DNA of 64,000 bases, from contig CACEJY010000005.1 in assembly GCA_902559985.1 (NCBI GenBank), forward strand, positions 1 through 64,000. Reading direction: 5' to 3'. The stretch's first letter is position 1. The number at the start of each line of letters is the position of its first letter. This document shows positions 56,435 to 64,000 of the stretch, piece by piece. The DNA comes from an uncultured SAR116 cluster alpha proteobacterium (GTDB lineage Bacteria > Pseudomonadota > Alphaproteobacteria > Puniceispirillales > Puniceispirillaceae). Made by a program: the position numbers and the translations under genes. The notes beneath the pieces were generated by a model, which saw only the letters and a program-made list of their open reading frames with translations, was not told the DNA's origin and did no database searches.

Positions 56435-58105
56435 CTAAAACAAACCCTCAATTTCACCATTGTCATTTATGCAAATAGTCTCTGCAGCCGGATGCCGTGG
56501 CAAACCGGGCATTGTCATGATTTCACCACAAACGGCAACAATGAAGCCTGCGCCCGCGCTAATCCTTACTTCGCGGACTGGTATAACGTGTCCGGTCGGT
56601 GCTCCACGAAGGTTCGGATCAGTTGAAAAACTATACTGTGTCTTCGCCATACAGACCGGCAAATGGCCATAACCTTGAGCCTCCCAATCTTTCAACTGAT
56701 CAAGGATTTTTTTATCCATTACCGCCTCATCAGCCCGATAGATATTCTTGCAAATATTCTGAATCTTATCCGCAAGAGGCATTTCATCTGGATAAATTGG
56801 TGAGAAATTAGCTTCACCCGCATCAGCAACCTCGGCCACTCTTTTCGCCAAATTTTCAGAACCAGCAGACCCATCAGCCCAGTGCTTTGAGACAATTGCC
56901 TCTGCACCCATTTCACTGCAATAATTTTGTACGGCCTGAACCTCAGCGTCGGTGTCTTTAACAAAGTGGTTAATTGCAACTAGTACAGGCACGCCAAATG
57001 ATCTCAAGTTTTCTATGTGTCGGCCAAGATTTGGGCAACCAGCTTTAACAGCCGCAACATTTTCGTTGTTCAAATCATTTTTTGCGACGCCGCCATTCAT
57101 CTTCATCGCACGCACTGTGGCGACTAGAACAACAGCCGATGGAGACAAAGCCGCCTTTCGGCATTTGATGTTTAGGAACTTTTCCGCTCCTAAATCCGCT
57201 CCAAAACCTGCCTCTGTCACAACATAATCCGCGAGCTTTAACGCTGTTTTAGTGGCAATCACAGAGTTGCAGCCATGAGCAATATTGGCAAAAGGACCAC
57301 CGTGAACGAATGCAGGATTATTTTCAAGGGTTTGCAACAGATTAGGCTGAATTGCATCTTTCAATAACACAGTCATCGCGCCATCAGCCTTTATATCACG
57401 GCAGAAGACGGGGGACCGGTCACGACGATATGCGACAATCATATCACCAAGGCGCTTTTGCAAGTCAGCAAGATCTTCTGCCAAACACAATATTGCCATG
57501 ACCTCAGACGCCACAGTGATGTCAAAACCAGCCTCACGCGGGAATCCATTAGAGACACCACCGAGTGAAGCGGTAATTTGGCGCAGCGCTCGATCATTCA
57601 TATCGACAACCCTCCGCCAAACGACGCGACGAGTGTCAATATCTAGCTCATTGCCCCCAATATATATGATTATCAATCATTGCAGAAAGCAGAGAATGTG
57701 CCGATGTGATAGCATGAAAATCGCCAGTGAAATGCAAATTCATCTCTTCCATTGGCACAATCTGGGCATATCCACCTCCGGCAGCCCCCCCCCCTTCATG
57801 CCAAAATTTGGCCCGAGAGAAGCCTCGCGGATACAAATCATTGCCTTCTTGCCGATGCGGTTTAAGCCGTCGCCAAGGCCGACAGTTGTTGTCGTCTTAC
57901 CCTCGCCAGCTGGTGTTGGGTTGATCGCCGTAACTAATATTAGTTTACCATCCGCATTTTTCTTTACAGAGTTTATAAAATTCTGACTTATCTTGGCTTT
58001 GTCATGGCCGAAGGGCACTAACTCCGATGACGGGATGCCCAGAACATCGCCAATTTCAAAAATTGGTTTTTTCTGCGCCGCGCGTGCAATTTCAATGTCA
58101 CTCAT
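56435..58105 (-). pseudogene. fhs: Formate-tetrahydrofolate ligase, interrupted by two homopolymer frameshifts
   Basis: N-part (57740..58144 [28 protein letters not shown]), middle part in another frame (57648..57836 [49 protein letters not shown]), C-part (56435..57676 [29 protein letters not shown]). Confidence 0.93.
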
Positions 58106-58380
58106 AAAATTCTCCCCGAAAATTTGATGCCAATACACCCTCACCCTCGGCAGGGACAGGCTGCTAATTTGCCCCTAAGAAATTGGGCTATTTTGAAAAT
58201 ATAGGCAGGTCGGATAAATACTCACTACGTATAAAAATCTTAGAAAATCACTGTTTATTGATGTCCGTTCCTTGTTTTAAGCTCTTACCACAACAAGTCA
58301 TCACCTTGGATGGTGGCGTTTTTCATAGCCACATTCGGGCTAATAGCACCGCCACCCAGGGTAAAATTTATCGCCGGCAA

Positions 58381-59268
58381 TCACCCAAGCTCATCGAGCT
58401 TACGCTCCCACTTCATATCTTTGGCGAACTTACGCAGCTCATCCTCAGGCATTTTTATCGTGTTTTCGGGACCAGGGTAATTCCTAGTTTTTACGTCATC
58501 CATGTACCGGGTGATTACATCTTCCATTATAGGGATCAAATCTGTGTATATGCGAGAGTGCTTCGGCACGTGCTCCTCCCACAAATGGAATAGGTCCGAG
58601 GAGATGATGTGGACACCATCGGCACAATTGCCAGCACCCAAGCTAATTACCGGGACTGGGAGAATTTCAGCCAAATATTCGGCAACTTCTGATGTTGTGA
58701 CCTCACAGAGTATTGAAAAACAACCAGCATCATACATCGCTTTAGCGTCGTCGATTAATTCTTTCGCGCGTTCTGCTGTTTTACCTTGGGCAATAAAACC
58801 ACCTAACTGGGGCATTCGCATTGGTGTTATGCCAATATGGCCCTGAACAGGTATTCCAGCACTGACAATTGCTTCAATAGCCGGAACATGGTGGCGATTG
58901 CCTTCACATTTCATCACTTCAGCATTCGCTTCGTGAACGAAACGACCAGCATTTTCGACAGCCTGCTCTTTGGAGACGTGAAAACTCCAATACGGCATAT
59001 CAACCATTCTTAACCCATACTGAGATCCGCGATCAATCGCTTTAGACATCATCATAACTTCATCAAAGCTCACAGCCGTTGTGCTTTGGTGTCCAAACAA
59101 GATCATTCCGCCTGTGTCTGAAACACATAAAATGTCCATACCCAAACGATCGGCAATAACCGCAGTTCGGTAATCATAAGCTGCTAACTGAGTTATCGGC
59201 TCACCGGCCGCCATCTTCTTTTGTAGCGTTTTAAAAGTAACTTTTCTTCTTGGCTTGGTGTCACTCAT
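58381..59268 (-). CDS. Divergent PanB-like (ketopantoate hydroxymethyltransferase family) protein
   Basis: TAYDYRTAVIADRLGMDILCVSDTGGMILFGHQSTTAVSFDEV, GIPVQGHIGITPMRMPQLGGFIAQGKT; active-site D/D/K/E/E appear kept while flanking motifs differ. Confidence 0.85.
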   Translation of the reverse strand: MSDTKPRRKVTFKTLQKKMAAGEPITQLAAYDYRTAVIADRLGMDILCVSDTGGMILFGHQSTTAVSFDEVMMMSKAIDRGSQYGLRMVDMPYWSFHVSKEQAVENAGRFVHEANAEVMKCEGNRHHVPAIEAIVSAGIPVQGHIGITPMRMPQLGGFIAQGKTAERAKELIDDAKAMYDAGCFSILCEVTTSEVAEYLAEILPVPVISLGAGNCADGVHIISSDLFHLWEEHVPKHSRIYTDLIPIMEDVITRYMDDVKTRNYPGPENTIKMPEDELRKFAKDMKWERKLDELG

Positions 59269-59437: not shown

Positions 59438-60181
59438 CTACACAAAAATTAAGTTTATCAACATATAAATGCCAGATCCAAGCAGCAAAAAAGCAACTAG
59501 GTTCCTGATCTTGTCAACTGGCAAACGCTCTGAGGCTTTCGCACCAAGAAATGTCCCCAAAACCAGACCTGGTGATAAAAGAGCCACAATTTCCCACCGA
59601 ATTATTCCTGACCATTGATTCCCAATAGTTGCAAATACAGCAATAGGTATCTGGATAGCCTGCGACAAACCAATTACTGCGAGCAATGGCATCGACAAAA
59701 AAGTTAATATTGGAACTAAAACCAACGGCCCACCGGTCCCACTTAGCACAGACAAGCACGCAGTTAAAAAGCCAACGAAGAACAAACTCACGTTTGACGG
59801 AGTTGATTGGCTTTCAAGGCGCTTAGCCTTCAAATTAGCAATCTGTCTGTATGCTGCAAAGATTAGAACGATAGCAATAAACAGTTTTAGGGTGTCGGCA
59901 TTAACTTTGGCGAGCGTGTGTGTACCCACCAACGCCCCTGGAATCGCTCCGATTGTTAAATAAATTAGTTGGAGCCAGTCGATCTCACCCCGCTTTGCAT
60001 AAGCAAATGTGCCAATCAACCCAGAAAAAATAAAAGATGACACAGCTGCTGCAATACTAATATGAATGCCATAGCCCGCACCGTACACAAGGAGTGGCAC
60101 CAATACCACACCACCAATCCCCGCAGCTCCTATTAAAGCACCCGAGAAAAGACCGCACACAAAAACGAAAATGAACGACAC
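59438..60181 (-). CDS. TauE/SafE family exporter (second copy)
   Basis: FSGALIGAAGIGGVVLVPLLVYGAGYGIHISIAAAVSSFIFSGLIGTFAYAKRGEIDW, LSVLSGTGGPLVLVPILT. Confidence 0.9.
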   Translation of the reverse strand: MSFIFVFVCGLFSGALIGAAGIGGVVLVPLLVYGAGYGIHISIAAAVSSFIFSGLIGTFAYAKRGEIDWLQLIYLTIGAIPGALVGTHTLAKVNADTLKLFIAIVLIFAAYRQIANLKAKRLESQSTPSNVSLFFVGFLTACLSVLSGTGGPLVLVPILTFLSMPLLAVIGLSQAIQIPIAVFATIGNQWSGIIRWEIVALLSPGLVLGTFLGAKASERLPVDKIRNLVAFLLLGSGIYMLINLIFV

Positions 60182-60359
60182 GGCTACCCCAAATAATCAC
60201 TAAAAAACACGGTATTATTAACTCGGAGAATTCAAACATAGGTGATAATGTGTTATATTCCTATGGGTTTTAAAAGCTAAGAGCCCTATTTTCGTGAATA
60301 AACGCATCAAAGCTATTTTTGTTTGCTAAAATCAAAAGATAGACGTGAGAGGCAATAGG

Positions 60360-61304
60360 ATGTTTCTGAAACAACTTGAATATCTTATCGCTGTTATTGA
60401 AGAAGACCATTTTGGAAGGGCTGCTGCCCGTTGCAACGTTAAACAGCCCAGCCTATCAAATGGTATAAAGCAACTGGAATTTGAATTAGGCGTTACCTTA
60501 TTTAAGAGAGGACGCGGCCAACGCTTGTATGGAATTACAGAAGAGGGAGAGCGTGTTGCGTATTGGGCCCGCTTGATCTTGGCCAACTGCACTGCAATGC
60601 GTGACAATATAGCAGAAATGCAGGACAGCTTGAGTGGAACTATCCGCCTTGGTGCAATTCCTTCAATGTCCCCAGTCCTGCCTATTATTTTACAACGCAT
60701 AAGAAAAGCATACCCGCTCGTGTCCGTCGACGTAAGATTTGTTGGAAATAACGAAATGAAAACCAGTTTGGACAATTATTCGATTGATTGTGCCATAACT
60801 TATATAGACCAATCCGATGAAATGCCCTGGTGCGAGGCCTTACCAGTTTTTGAGGAAACTTGGAGCTTATTGGTACCAGACTCTTTTAAATTTGAGAATA
60901 TGAATGACATTACATGGGCAGAAGCAGCAGAGCTGCCACTAGCCTTGTTACGAAAATCAATGTACGAGCGTTCAGTAATCGATCAAACATTTACGGCTGC
61001 GGGGACTAGTGTTGTGCCAAAAATTGAGTCGGAATCAATCCTGCATTTGATGTTTCAGACTCAGTTTACAGAACTTTGTACGGTCATTCCGTCACATTAT
61101 ACGAGAATGCCCGGCCTCTACACGGGAACTAAGGCACTTTTGCTAAAAGACCCGATAATACGAAAAGGCATAGGGCTATTCTGGGTTAAAACTGAAACAA
61201 CTATTCCAATCACAAAAATCACTGAAGAGGTTGGGCGTGCGCTTGCGAAGAACAGTGAACTGCAAAATTTTCTTTATCATAAATCAACTACATCAGCAGG
61301 CTAA
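60360..61304 (+). CDS. LysR family transcriptional regulator
   Basis: MFLKQLEYLIAVIEEDHFGRAAARCNVKQPSLSNGIKQLEFELGVTLFKRGRG. Confidence 0.93.
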   Translation: MFLKQLEYLIAVIEEDHFGRAAARCNVKQPSLSNGIKQLEFELGVTLFKRGRGQRLYGITEEGERVAYWARLILANCTAMRDNIAEMQDSLSGTIRLGAIPSMSPVLPIILQRIRKAYPLVSVDVRFVGNNEMKTSLDNYSIDCAITYIDQSDEMPWCEALPVFEETWSLLVPDSFKFENMNDITWAEAAELPLALLRKSMYERSVIDQTFTAAGTSVVPKIESESILHLMFQTQFTELCTVIPSHYTRMPGLYTGTKALLLKDPIIRKGIGLFWVKTETTIPITKITEEVGRALAKNSELQNFLYHKSTTSAG

Positions 61305-61397: not shown

Positions 61398-62486
61398 TTA
61401 CTCAGCAGCAATCACATCGTCAGTTGCCAAACCAAGAGGATTAGCCGGCGAAACCCCGAGGAATTTACCCCAGGCTTCATAATAGTGCCTCATACCTACT
61501 TCGTCATGTATCGTTGAGTTTTCATGCCGCCCATGCAAGATGTTACGAACTTCTGTTCCCTCTCGCATAGTAGTCCCTTGGCCAGCAACACCAATCAAAT
61601 CCTCATGGAGGTTGCGCCCAAATGGTCCCCAAATAGAATTGTGGTGTTTTATACGCGTCTGACGCTCTTTCGGGGTATCTTGTTTAAGCCCATAGCCCCT
61701 GAATTCAATAAGTACCTTGTTTGGCCCCAGCGGGGTGACAATGTCGCTTCTGTATGCACTGCCGCGAAGGTTAAAATTATATCCTGGGAACAGGTCTACC
61801 ATATACCACTGGTTTGGTGGTAAATTGGGGAATGATAACTCCCCACGATCTTCGAACCCATCATATTCTTCGTAGTTCACTGTAAAGCTACTTACATTTA
61901 CGTGGCCATTATCAAACGGGATGTTTTTTCTGGCAAAGTACTCATCATTGAACCCAGAAACTCGATTAAAATAATGCATGAAATCGTGATAGAACTCACT
62001 ATTTGTGTCATGCCATAACTTGTAATTCGTGTCGATAACTGCCTTATGGTAGTGAAACACTTCCATATCTTCAGCATCAATGGCATCTGCAATACAGTCA
62101 AACGCTCCACACGTCCACTCTTCAACGCTTTGGGTTGGGTTTGGATCAAGAGTTGTCCATACCATACCGCCGTGTTTCACCTCACTGCAGAGTTCTCTTA
62201 ATCCAGCGGTGTCAAGTCCGTTACCGGCCGTCCGATCAATTGAAGGGCAAAGAAATACCTTGACATTACCCTTGGTATTTACAGCCACCACGTTTTGGTG
62301 AGCAATTTGCATCGAACGGTAGTCCCCATCATTGGACATTTCGCTGAAGTGGCACATTGGGACCCACACTTTTGCGAAAATATGCTCAATTTCCTGTTCG
62401 TAGATGCTATGATTGTTATAGCACTCGCTTGAAATGTGTTCAATCTTTGGAACTTTTAACCAATTTTTGTGGTTTCTTGGTGGCAT
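61398..62486 (-). CDS. Rieske-oxygenase alpha-subunit-like protein lacking the [2Fe-2S] ligand motifs
   Basis: Catalytic-domain motif NYKLWHDTNSEFYHDFMHYFNR and LHEDLIGVAGQG retained; no CXH or CX2H anywhere in the ORF. Start MPPRNHKNW at 62486. Confidence 0.85.
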   Translation of the reverse strand: MPPRNHKNWLKVPKIEHISSECYNNHSIYEQEIEHIFAKVWVPMCHFSEMSNDGDYRSMQIAHQNVVAVNTKGNVKVFLCPSIDRTAGNGLDTAGLRELCSEVKHGGMVWTTLDPNPTQSVEEWTCGAFDCIADAIDAEDMEVFHYHKAVIDTNYKLWHDTNSEFYHDFMHYFNRVSGFNDEYFARKNIPFDNGHVNVSSFTVNYEEYDGFEDRGELSFPNLPPNQWYMVDLFPGYNFNLRGSAYRSDIVTPLGPNKVLIEFRGYGLKQDTPKERQTRIKHHNSIWGPFGRNLHEDLIGVAGQGTTMREGTEVRNILHGRHENSTIHDEVGMRHYYEAWGKFLGVSPANPLGLATDDVIAAE

Positions 62487-62687
62487 TTCGCACTCCCATC
62501 GCAATTAGTTCTTTTACCGTTCTGTGCATTTTGCGGCTCGAATGGCAATATATGCATTAAGTGTTCCATTTTGATACTACCGATGTCAACGAAGATCTTC
62601 GAAAACATAAATAATCGGCTAATAGCCGAAATCTAATTTTATTAAAAATTTTCGCCTGCCGGCATAAGTTTGTCTCCCTACCGAACA

Positions 62688-63533
62688 TTATTTCGAATGA
62701 TTGGCCTCGATAAACTTACCAACAAGATTTTCAACAAGCTCGACGTCAGGCAGGGTTTCATGAACAATAGACTTTAATGACAATAACGTTCCAGGGTCAT
62801 AATCCAGAAGGTGAGTTTTGGACCCACTTTGCTTTTTACTGCCTTTGACAAAGAAAAACGGTGCCGGGCGTAAATGATCACCTAGGCACATTCCGATTAG
62901 TGGCAATTTGACTGTCTCGTTGTCTACGACAATATTGAGAACCAAAGAAAATGACTCCGGTTCTAAGGTTATCCATTGTCGACACTTTGTAAATTGAGGC
63001 TGCTGAGCAATAGCATTAGATACGCTCCGTAATATTTCGTTTGCTCTCAACACGCAAACATTCAAAGCATTAAGTTCTCGTTTGTAAGCCGAGGCGTTGT
63101 GGTCTTCGGTATCCCCCATTAGCATGTAAGGTGAGGAAAAAGGTAGGTCAGTGGAAAATTTTGATTGGTCGCGGTCTCTGTGCAGTAATTCAACTAGATA
63201 CCATGCCTCTGCAAATGCGGGCGTTCGATCATCCAGCCAAAAACTGTGAGGCACCTTTTGACCACCTTCACAAAAATACAATTCCAAATCGGGAAAATTA
63301 AGGCCGATTTGAAGATCCCCATCAAAAGATCTCGTTCTAAAATTGCCCGAAGCTTTGTGCCAGAATAAGCTTAAGTGCCCATTATCCGGCGTCGAGTCCA
63401 AGAAACTATTCGTTCCCCGAGCCATCCAGAATAACGCGTTATGCGCTTCAATTCTGGCTTGCCTAAAATGGTTGGTGTCAAAAATATTTATAGGTGGCCA
63501 TTGACTTGAATCGTTCAATAAATTCTCTCTCAA
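62688..63533 (-). CDS. Hypothetical protein, no recognised family, in the Rieske-like operon
   Basis: 281 aa ORF co-directional between the oxygenase-like gene and the Rieske ferredoxin. Confidence 0.7.
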   Translation of the reverse strand: MRENLLNDSSQWPPINIFDTNHFRQARIEAHNALFWMARGTNSFLDSTPDNGHLSLFWHKASGNFRTRSFDGDLQIGLNFPDLELYFCEGGQKVPHSFWLDDRTPAFAEAWYLVELLHRDRDQSKFSTDLPFSSPYMLMGDTEDHNASAYKRELNALNVCVLRANEILRSVSNAIAQQPQFTKCRQWITLEPESFSLVLNIVVDNETVKLPLIGMCLGDHLRPAPFFFVKGSKKQSGSKTHLLDYDPGTLLSLKSIVHETLPDVELVENLVGKFIEANHSK

Positions 63534-63688
63534 TCAGTACCATCAGATTTTGGCTGAAGTGTTCAGCGCACTCCCAAAATGCCGACATCATTTCAGTAAA
63601 CAAATTTATAAATCATTTTGGTTGACCTTGCGAAACTATCTCGGTTGCCGTGAAACTCGGTCAAAATATTCCTTATAATCGTGTTGGC

Positions 63689-64000
63689 CTACCACTCGTC
63701 ATCGTCATCGTCATCAAAAAAAGTGTTCTCATCAATATCTTCATCTTCGTCAAAATTGTATTCAAGTTGTTCAGTAACATAAACCATGATGTTGCTACCC
63801 TCGACTTTTACGTCGTAGGTTTTGAGCGGAAGCTCTGCCTCGTCCTGCAACTCTAACGTCTCTAAGTCCCACGACCATAGATGCTTGGTGCACGTTAGCT
63901 TGCATCCCATTACTAGGCCAGACTCTTCCAATGGTTCCTCCAGATGAGGACAAACTGGAGGTATAGCAACAAAACCTCTTTTATGGTGGGCAACAGCAAT
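63689..64000 (-). CDS. Rieske [2Fe-2S] ferredoxin with acidic C-terminal tail (5' end off window)
   Basis: Reading frame upstream of the listed ORF extends to the window edge: IAVAHHKRGFVAIPPVCPHLEEPLEESGLVMGCKLTCTKHLWSWDLETLELQ...; CPH-X17-CTKH motif; tail FDEDEDIDENTFFDDDDDDEW. Confidence 0.88.
   Translation of the reverse strand: MAVAHHKRGFVAIPPVCPHLEEPLEESGLVMGCKLTCTKHLWSWDLETLELQDEAELPLKTYDVKVEGSNIMVYVTEQLEYNFDEDEDIDENTFFDDDDDDEW

Follow-up and report, generated by a model that had tools for sequence, protein, structure and literature searches.

The window, a stretch of 64,000 nucleotides, comes from a draft genome of the SAR116 type with a size of 1.7 Mb and a completeness of 73%. It lies on contig C5 and stops 1,120 bases short of the contig end at position 65,120. 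Near its edge lie three genes, encoding an oxygenase-like protein (here called α'), a 281-amino-acid (aa) protein and a Rieske ferredoxin (Table 1). The gap between the oxygenase gene and the 281-aa gene is 183 to 201 nt, according to the choice of start, and that between the 281-aa gene and the ferredoxin gene is 155 nt. The original prediction, which placed a Rieske-less oxygenase subunit and a ferredoxin with a full CPH-X17-CTKHLW motif among three minus-strand genes, was correct in these respects; the whole ferredoxin measures 132 aa, its gene starting at 64087 outside the window. It had also assigned the three genes to one transcription unit. This is plausible for the window but does not apply throughout: G015, a genome in one contig (2,753,527 bp), has formate dehydrogenase genes inserted between the ferredoxin and 281-aa genes, and in G025 the oxygenase gene is about 12 to 15 kb away from the remaining cluster genes. 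A conserved three-gene order is likewise usual in relatives but broken in these two genomes. Farther along the window, the formate-tetrahydrofolate ligase occupies two frames, compared with a single frame of 555 to 568 aa in relatives, which reflects either a frameshift or an assembly error. A VanA-type Rieske oxygenase on contig C4 was set aside as a complete enzyme of a different kind.

Table 1. Features of the locus in and just beyond the window.
Feature	Position	Strand	Remark
Formate-tetrahydrofolate ligase, two frames	56435-58144	-	413 and 134 aa
PanB-like protein	58381..59268	-	Conserved with msm clusters
TauE/SafE sulfite exporter family protein	59438..60181	-	Conserved with the cluster
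LysR-type regulator	60345..61304	+	Adjoins α' in the SAR116 loci read
α', putative Rieske-less, mononuclear-iron half of a split methanesulfonate monooxygenase (MSMO)	61398..62486	-	362 aa, ATG at 62486
Asp296 codon, predicted carboxylate iron ligand (NLHEDLIG)	61599..61601	-	Profile alignment to 7vju/7q04
His171 codon, predicted mononuclear iron ligand	61974..61976	-	Profile alignment to terephthalate dioxygenase 7vju/7q04
His167 codon, predicted mononuclear iron ligand	61986..61988	-	Profile alignment to terephthalate dioxygenase 7vju/7q04
Glu164 codon, predicted bridging carboxylate	61995..61997	-	Asp205 position of naphthalene dioxygenase
Rieske remnant in α', residues 54-105	62172..62327	-	Alignments; identities in text
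281-aa msm-associated protein, TTG start	62688..63533	-	Confident single-chain model
Rieske ferredoxin, MsmC type, poly-acidic tail	63689..64000, on to 64087 past the window	-	Motif
β subunit, 173 aa	64140-64661, past the window		SnoaL_4, weak Ring_hydroxyl_B
Reductase part of the fusion	64745 to contig end 65120, past the window		Reductase_C, 75 bits

For α', we preferred the ATG start (MPPRN...), which is common to all orthologues; the listed TTG at 62504 gives 6 additional residues. In a family search, the protein matched Ring_hydroxyl_A above the cut-off (28.9 bits) and gave no match to the Rieske models. Its AlphaFold model (pLDDT 84, pTM 0.85) was assigned by Foldseek to the Rieske α-subunit fold, with 7c8z as the best match (E value of 1.3e-19, TM score of 0.71), and alignments revealed that both Cys-His loops of the Rieske domain had been deleted together with the approximately 45 residues between them. 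Orthologues that are 84 to 97% identical were found in 11 other SAR116-type genomes, and α' is therefore not a product of chance; with the window's own genome counted, it is present in 12 of the 61 genomes of the family. This set of 12 does not include the protein of locus L080, which is an ordinary MsmA, the large MSMO subunit. The two Cys and two His ligands of the Rieske [2Fe-2S] cluster are found in none of the 12 proteins, and the 2-His-1-carboxylate iron site with its bridging carboxylate is kept in all of them. The median pairwise identity of the host orthologues amounts to 73% in the Rieske remnant versus 93% in the catalytic part. The notion that α' is a pseudogene was dropped because the ligands are invariant.

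The original prediction had pointed to the region past position 64,000 as the place to search for a reductase, a β subunit or a transporter, and both a β subunit and part of a reductase, its last 124 residues only, were found before the contig end. The window's own Rieske half is cut off by this end, and we inferred it from relatives whose α' is 96 to 97% identical. Each of the 11 relatives with α' contains a second, weaker match in a roughly 800-residue frame, which in most cases is a few kilobases away and in G014 is on another contig than α'. This protein, here called the fusion, starts with a Rieske domain (PF00355, 63 bits) bearing the motif CPH-X26-CMFH, which is of the MsmA type (CXH-X26-CXXH), continues with a decayed catalytic domain that falls below the Pfam cut-off, and carries in its C-terminal half a complete putidaredoxin-reductase-like FAD/NAD part (Pyr_redox_2 and Reductase_C). 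It had been considered that a complete alpha subunit just outside the window could make α' a degenerate paralogue; in relatives an alpha-type protein does lie there, but its iron site is broken. In G028 (L040, 17140-17200), the fusion is represented by two adjoining frames of 330 and 465 aa with a 4-base overlap (ATGA), and the break, which separates the catalytic remnant from the segment running into the reductase, is due to either gene fission or error. The neighbourhood of one-chain MsmA genes also holds stand-alone reductases (L097, 6793, plus strand; L103, 13729, minus strand), which share 55 to 56% identity with the fused one and likely represent the pre-fusion state.

A scan of the named genomes yielded 80 MsmA-type loci, and the alignment compared 65 one-chain MsmA proteins, 15 fusions and the 12 α'. 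All 65 one-chain proteins keep the four Rieske ligands as well as Glu164, His167, His171 and Asp296 (α' numbering), and their median identities are 77% in the Rieske and 73% in the catalytic domain. The fusions have all four Rieske ligands with the X26 spacer (15/15); in every one of them the helix of the iron site has been either deleted or rewritten, and NLHEDLIG is missing. Glu164, retained in all α' and in all 136 full-length viral copies described below, occurs in 0 of the 15 fusions. Selective constraint on the fusion matches this pattern of ligand loss, the median pairwise identity being 91% in the Rieske domain, 41% in the catalytic remnant and 75.5% in the reductase. Hence the two metal sites do not reside on a single large subunit here, being divided between two proteins, each of which is about 45 to 55% identical to one-chain MsmA. 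α' and the fusion are reciprocally degenerate, and each has stayed conserved in the part on which function would still depend. The two also occur together: all fusion genomes found have α' as well (the 11 SAR116-type relatives and those of L051, L054 and L067), and α' is absent from 21 genomes with one-chain MsmA.

Relatives of α' are also encoded by phages. In HMO-2011, a phage infecting SAR116, α' is 74% identical to that of the window, has an intact iron site and lacks the Rieske domain. A scan of IMG/VR revealed at least 599 viral stretches with relatives of α', and a second scan, which started from the Rieske-bearing fusion and included a Rieske-motif pattern, returned α'-like genes only. 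Among the matches listed, none of the 144 viral loci read had a Rieske motif in the gene, and the stretches read of these loci contained no β, ferredoxin or reductase genes. All four iron-site residues are present in 136 of 136 full-length viral copies; 7 viral genes are cut short. The viral Rieske remnant is 38.5% identical versus 90% for the catalytic part, and the median dN/dS of viral α' is 0.068 (304 pairs). In 7 viral loci (e.g., L188, 4532-5011), the start of α' is overlapped by an AprB-like (APS reductase β) gene, named from the sequence itself and not by family search; such a phage operon would couple the production of sulfite to its oxidation.

The ferredoxin, present in every split cluster read, corresponds to the usual MsmC that msm operons encode. 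The original prediction of a split Rieske oxygenase that takes its electron from the cluster of another protein was upheld, but the ferredoxin lost its assigned place as the substitute for the missing cluster, as the fusion carries an MsmA-type Rieske domain and would be the obvious electron donor for α'. At their end, MsmC ferredoxins carry an acidic tail that is conserved (DDMDDDDFF-like; L003, 3689-3760, and relatives) and is stretched to a poly-Asp run in split systems. The 281-aa protein matched nothing in Pfam or NCBIfam, and gave chance hits only in a sequence search against the PDB; its model is confident, but no solved fold was similar to it at an E value of ≤0.001. It is conserved in split loci; its relatives, 27 to 36% identical, are located close to 14 of the 66 one-chain msm loci and were found by profile search in 12 of 385 alphaproteobacterial genomes, and the gene is in none of the 144 viral loci in the stretches read. 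Since it accompanies ordinary msm loci and occurs in no viral locus read, the protein is not specific to the split, and it looks like an msm accessory rather than the new coupling subunit that had been envisaged.

In relatives, the usual gene order is ABC transporter (divergent), fusion, β subunit, ferredoxin, 281-aa protein and α', followed by LysR (opposite), TauE, PanB and formate-tetrahydrofolate ligase. The transporter is an NMT1-type ABC system of the msmEFGH type, and the MsmE-like binding protein shares about 50 to 75% identity with its counterparts in one-chain msm loci. MsmB and MsmC partners together with an msmEFGH-type transporter are present beside the split enzyme, and no stand-alone MsmD was seen in the split cluster. 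This gene content matches the setting of published msm regions, of which that of Filomicrobium also holds TauE and PanB-like genes (PMC4433239). The PanB-like protein is a second copy, the other PanB being encoded on contig C21. Because msm clusters of many unrelated bacteria are accompanied by PanB-like genes, this protein may transfer C1 units during methanesulfonate use instead of serving pantothenate synthesis.

Our preferred reading, to which we assign a probability of roughly 80%, is that α' and the fusion constitute a split MSMO in which the fusion would pass electrons in trans to the iron of α' across a subunit interface. Electrons from NADH would enter the FAD reductase domain of the fusion, proceed, probably via the MsmC ferredoxin, to its Rieske cluster and then pass between the subunits to the mononuclear iron of α', Glu164 serving as the bridge; α' would bind methanesulfonate and O2 and release formaldehyde and sulfite. 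In solved structures of ordinary Rieske trimers, the two metal centres of neighbouring subunits are close enough for an electron to pass between them across the interface (PMC8752792), and a Rieske-only chain and an iron-only chain could therefore complete one active unit. As strict alternation of two kinds of subunit is impossible in a trimer, the assembly would have to differ and may be a 2:1 complex, a trimer of dimers or a larger ring. Methanesulfonate is the predicted substrate because of the X26 signature, the 26-residue spacer being the published signature of MsmA (PMC4433239), and because of the neighbouring transporter, sulfite exporter and C1 genes (compare Filomicrobium). SAR116 bacteria of the ocean probably use the split enzyme to break down methanesulfonate. 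A point against this reading is that the reductase belongs to the Pyr_redox_2/Reductase_C class and not to the plant-ferredoxin/FNR class of one-chain msm operons, the type of the latter being assigned by sequence motif.

The complete Rieske motif of the ferredoxin, its conserved acidic tail and its constant presence in the cluster would also suit a scheme in which MsmC docks on α' and feeds it the electron directly, the fusion being merely its reductase. We consider this scheme quite unlikely: one-chain MsmA is partnered by the same ferredoxin, which there has a tail of this kind as well, a fusion Rieske domain that is 91% identical would be senseless for a mere reductase anchor, and no ferredoxin was seen in α'-bearing phages in the stretches read. 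Loss of a whole cofactor site could instead mark α' as a degenerate paralogue or a regulatory pseudoenzyme, leaving the chemistry to the fusion. Such a division of labour is highly improbable given that the iron ligands, which no host α' and none of the 136 full-length viral copies has lost, are found in 0/15 fusions and that the viral dN/dS has a median of 0.068.

It is further conceivable that the proposed mechanism of the split enzyme is right but that it acts on a different small sulfonate or on some other substrate that releases C1 units; the reductase class is unlike MsmD, the assignment of methanesulfonate draws on synteny, and several sulfonates are thought to be used by SAR116 (PMC12262181). 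Yet the X26 signature, the MsmE-like binding protein, TauE, PanB and the C1 genes all fit methanesulfonate, and a different substrate appears unlikely to us. Draft bins from metagenomes and genomes of single cells make up many of the sources, and Rieske-less and iron-less forms could arise in them as artefacts of assembly or gene calling. However, the same state recurs in the one-contig 2.75-Mb genome G015, in the isolate phage HMO-2011 and on many independent contigs, by which this explanation is already refuted.

As for the origin of the split MSMO, a tree including one-chain MsmA placed the host α' as one clade (100/99) nested in viral α', and a topology holding the main viral group together, a group picked after a quick tree, was disfavoured (AU p = 0.019). 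This nesting of the SAR116 proteins inside those of phages hints at a phage origin. The virB copies (L206, L211 and L231) fall inside gammaproteobacterial one-chain MsmA with a support of 99, and the Rieske site was therefore probably lost more than once; the surroundings of L206 are T4-like, with PhoH, gp32-like and tape-measure genes. The clade of fusions joins one-chain MsmA of Hyphomicrobiaceae/SAR116 and α' lies nearer to those of Rhodospirillales, placements that are tentative in view of the long branches. As the halves thus attach, tentatively, to different lineages, an origin by local tandem duplication was rejected.

A possible history, which we regard as somewhat less probable than its contrary, is that phages repeatedly took host msmA and dropped the Rieske domain, that one such copy entered SAR116-type bacteria, and that the host MsmA then lost its iron site and was fused to a reductase. 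The Rieske domain could be dispensable to a phage subunit that sits in a host oxygenase ring and borrows the cluster of its neighbour, and a host MsmA relieved of catalysis could lose its iron site and acquire the reductase, giving rise to an obligate two-part enzyme. In a related oxygenase operon of another alphaproteobacterial family (f33), there are two tandem α genes, of which one is complete and the second has a decayed or deleted Rieske domain and an intact iron site (L271, 7100-9327; L272, 7261-9674; L270, 6308-8649). This tandem pair is possibly an independent half-way intermediate.

Among known enzymes, the two-chain chlorophyllide a oxygenase (MpCAO) of Micromonas comes closest as a precedent. 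Each MpCAO chain reportedly keeps one of the two sites, and we know of no phage copies of this enzyme. The split MSMO resembles MpCAO in kind, with two homologous chains of one metal site each, a likeness from which we claim no common descent. MpCAO of Micromonas pusilla is likewise a two-polypeptide Rieske oxygenase and is discussed as a heterodimer or a trimer of dimers (PMC9615114, citing Kunugi et al. 2013), but it is eukaryotic, acts on another substrate in another lineage and has no reductase fusion. With MsmABCD of Methylosulfonomonas, Filomicrobium and Methylobacterium, the split system shares the X26 signature, the β subunit, the ferredoxin, the ABC transporter and the TauE/PanB neighbourhood; in contrast, its two metal sites are on two proteins and the reductase joined to its Rieske half is of a different class. 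The ordinary α3β3 oxygenases (naphthalene and terephthalate dioxygenases, NagGH) have the fold of α', the bridging carboxylate and the cross-interface electron transfer in common with the proposed enzyme, whereas they hold both centres in one chain.

Parts of this picture have been noticed before. Henriques and De Marco reported in 2015 that Puniceispirillum marinum has two MsmA annotations, with the motif in one of them, and that Rieske-less 'MsmA' occurs in metagenomes, viromes and HMO-2011, which was left uninterpreted (PMC4433239). The 'MsmA' of phage HMO-2011 has been described as the MSMO α subunit, and a review speculated that the first step of methanesulfonate oxidation is due to the phage gene (PMC4928673). 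This protein is likewise an α', and on the present reading it would be the catalytic half only and dependent on the host. In a literature search that covered few subscription papers, we found no description of the reciprocal halves, of the reductase fusion or of the host dependence of the phage gene.

If true, the split MSMO would represent a natural dissection of a Rieske oxygenase, in which one protein delivers the electrons and the other does the chemistry. The halves could be separately loaded, mutated or swapped, which would provide a clean test of electron transfer across subunits. The split reading would explain the MsmA without Rieske ligands that was seen in 2015 in marine data and phages. 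Moreover, a widespread marine phage gene that is counted as MSMO should be inactive alone and would work through the enzyme of its host.
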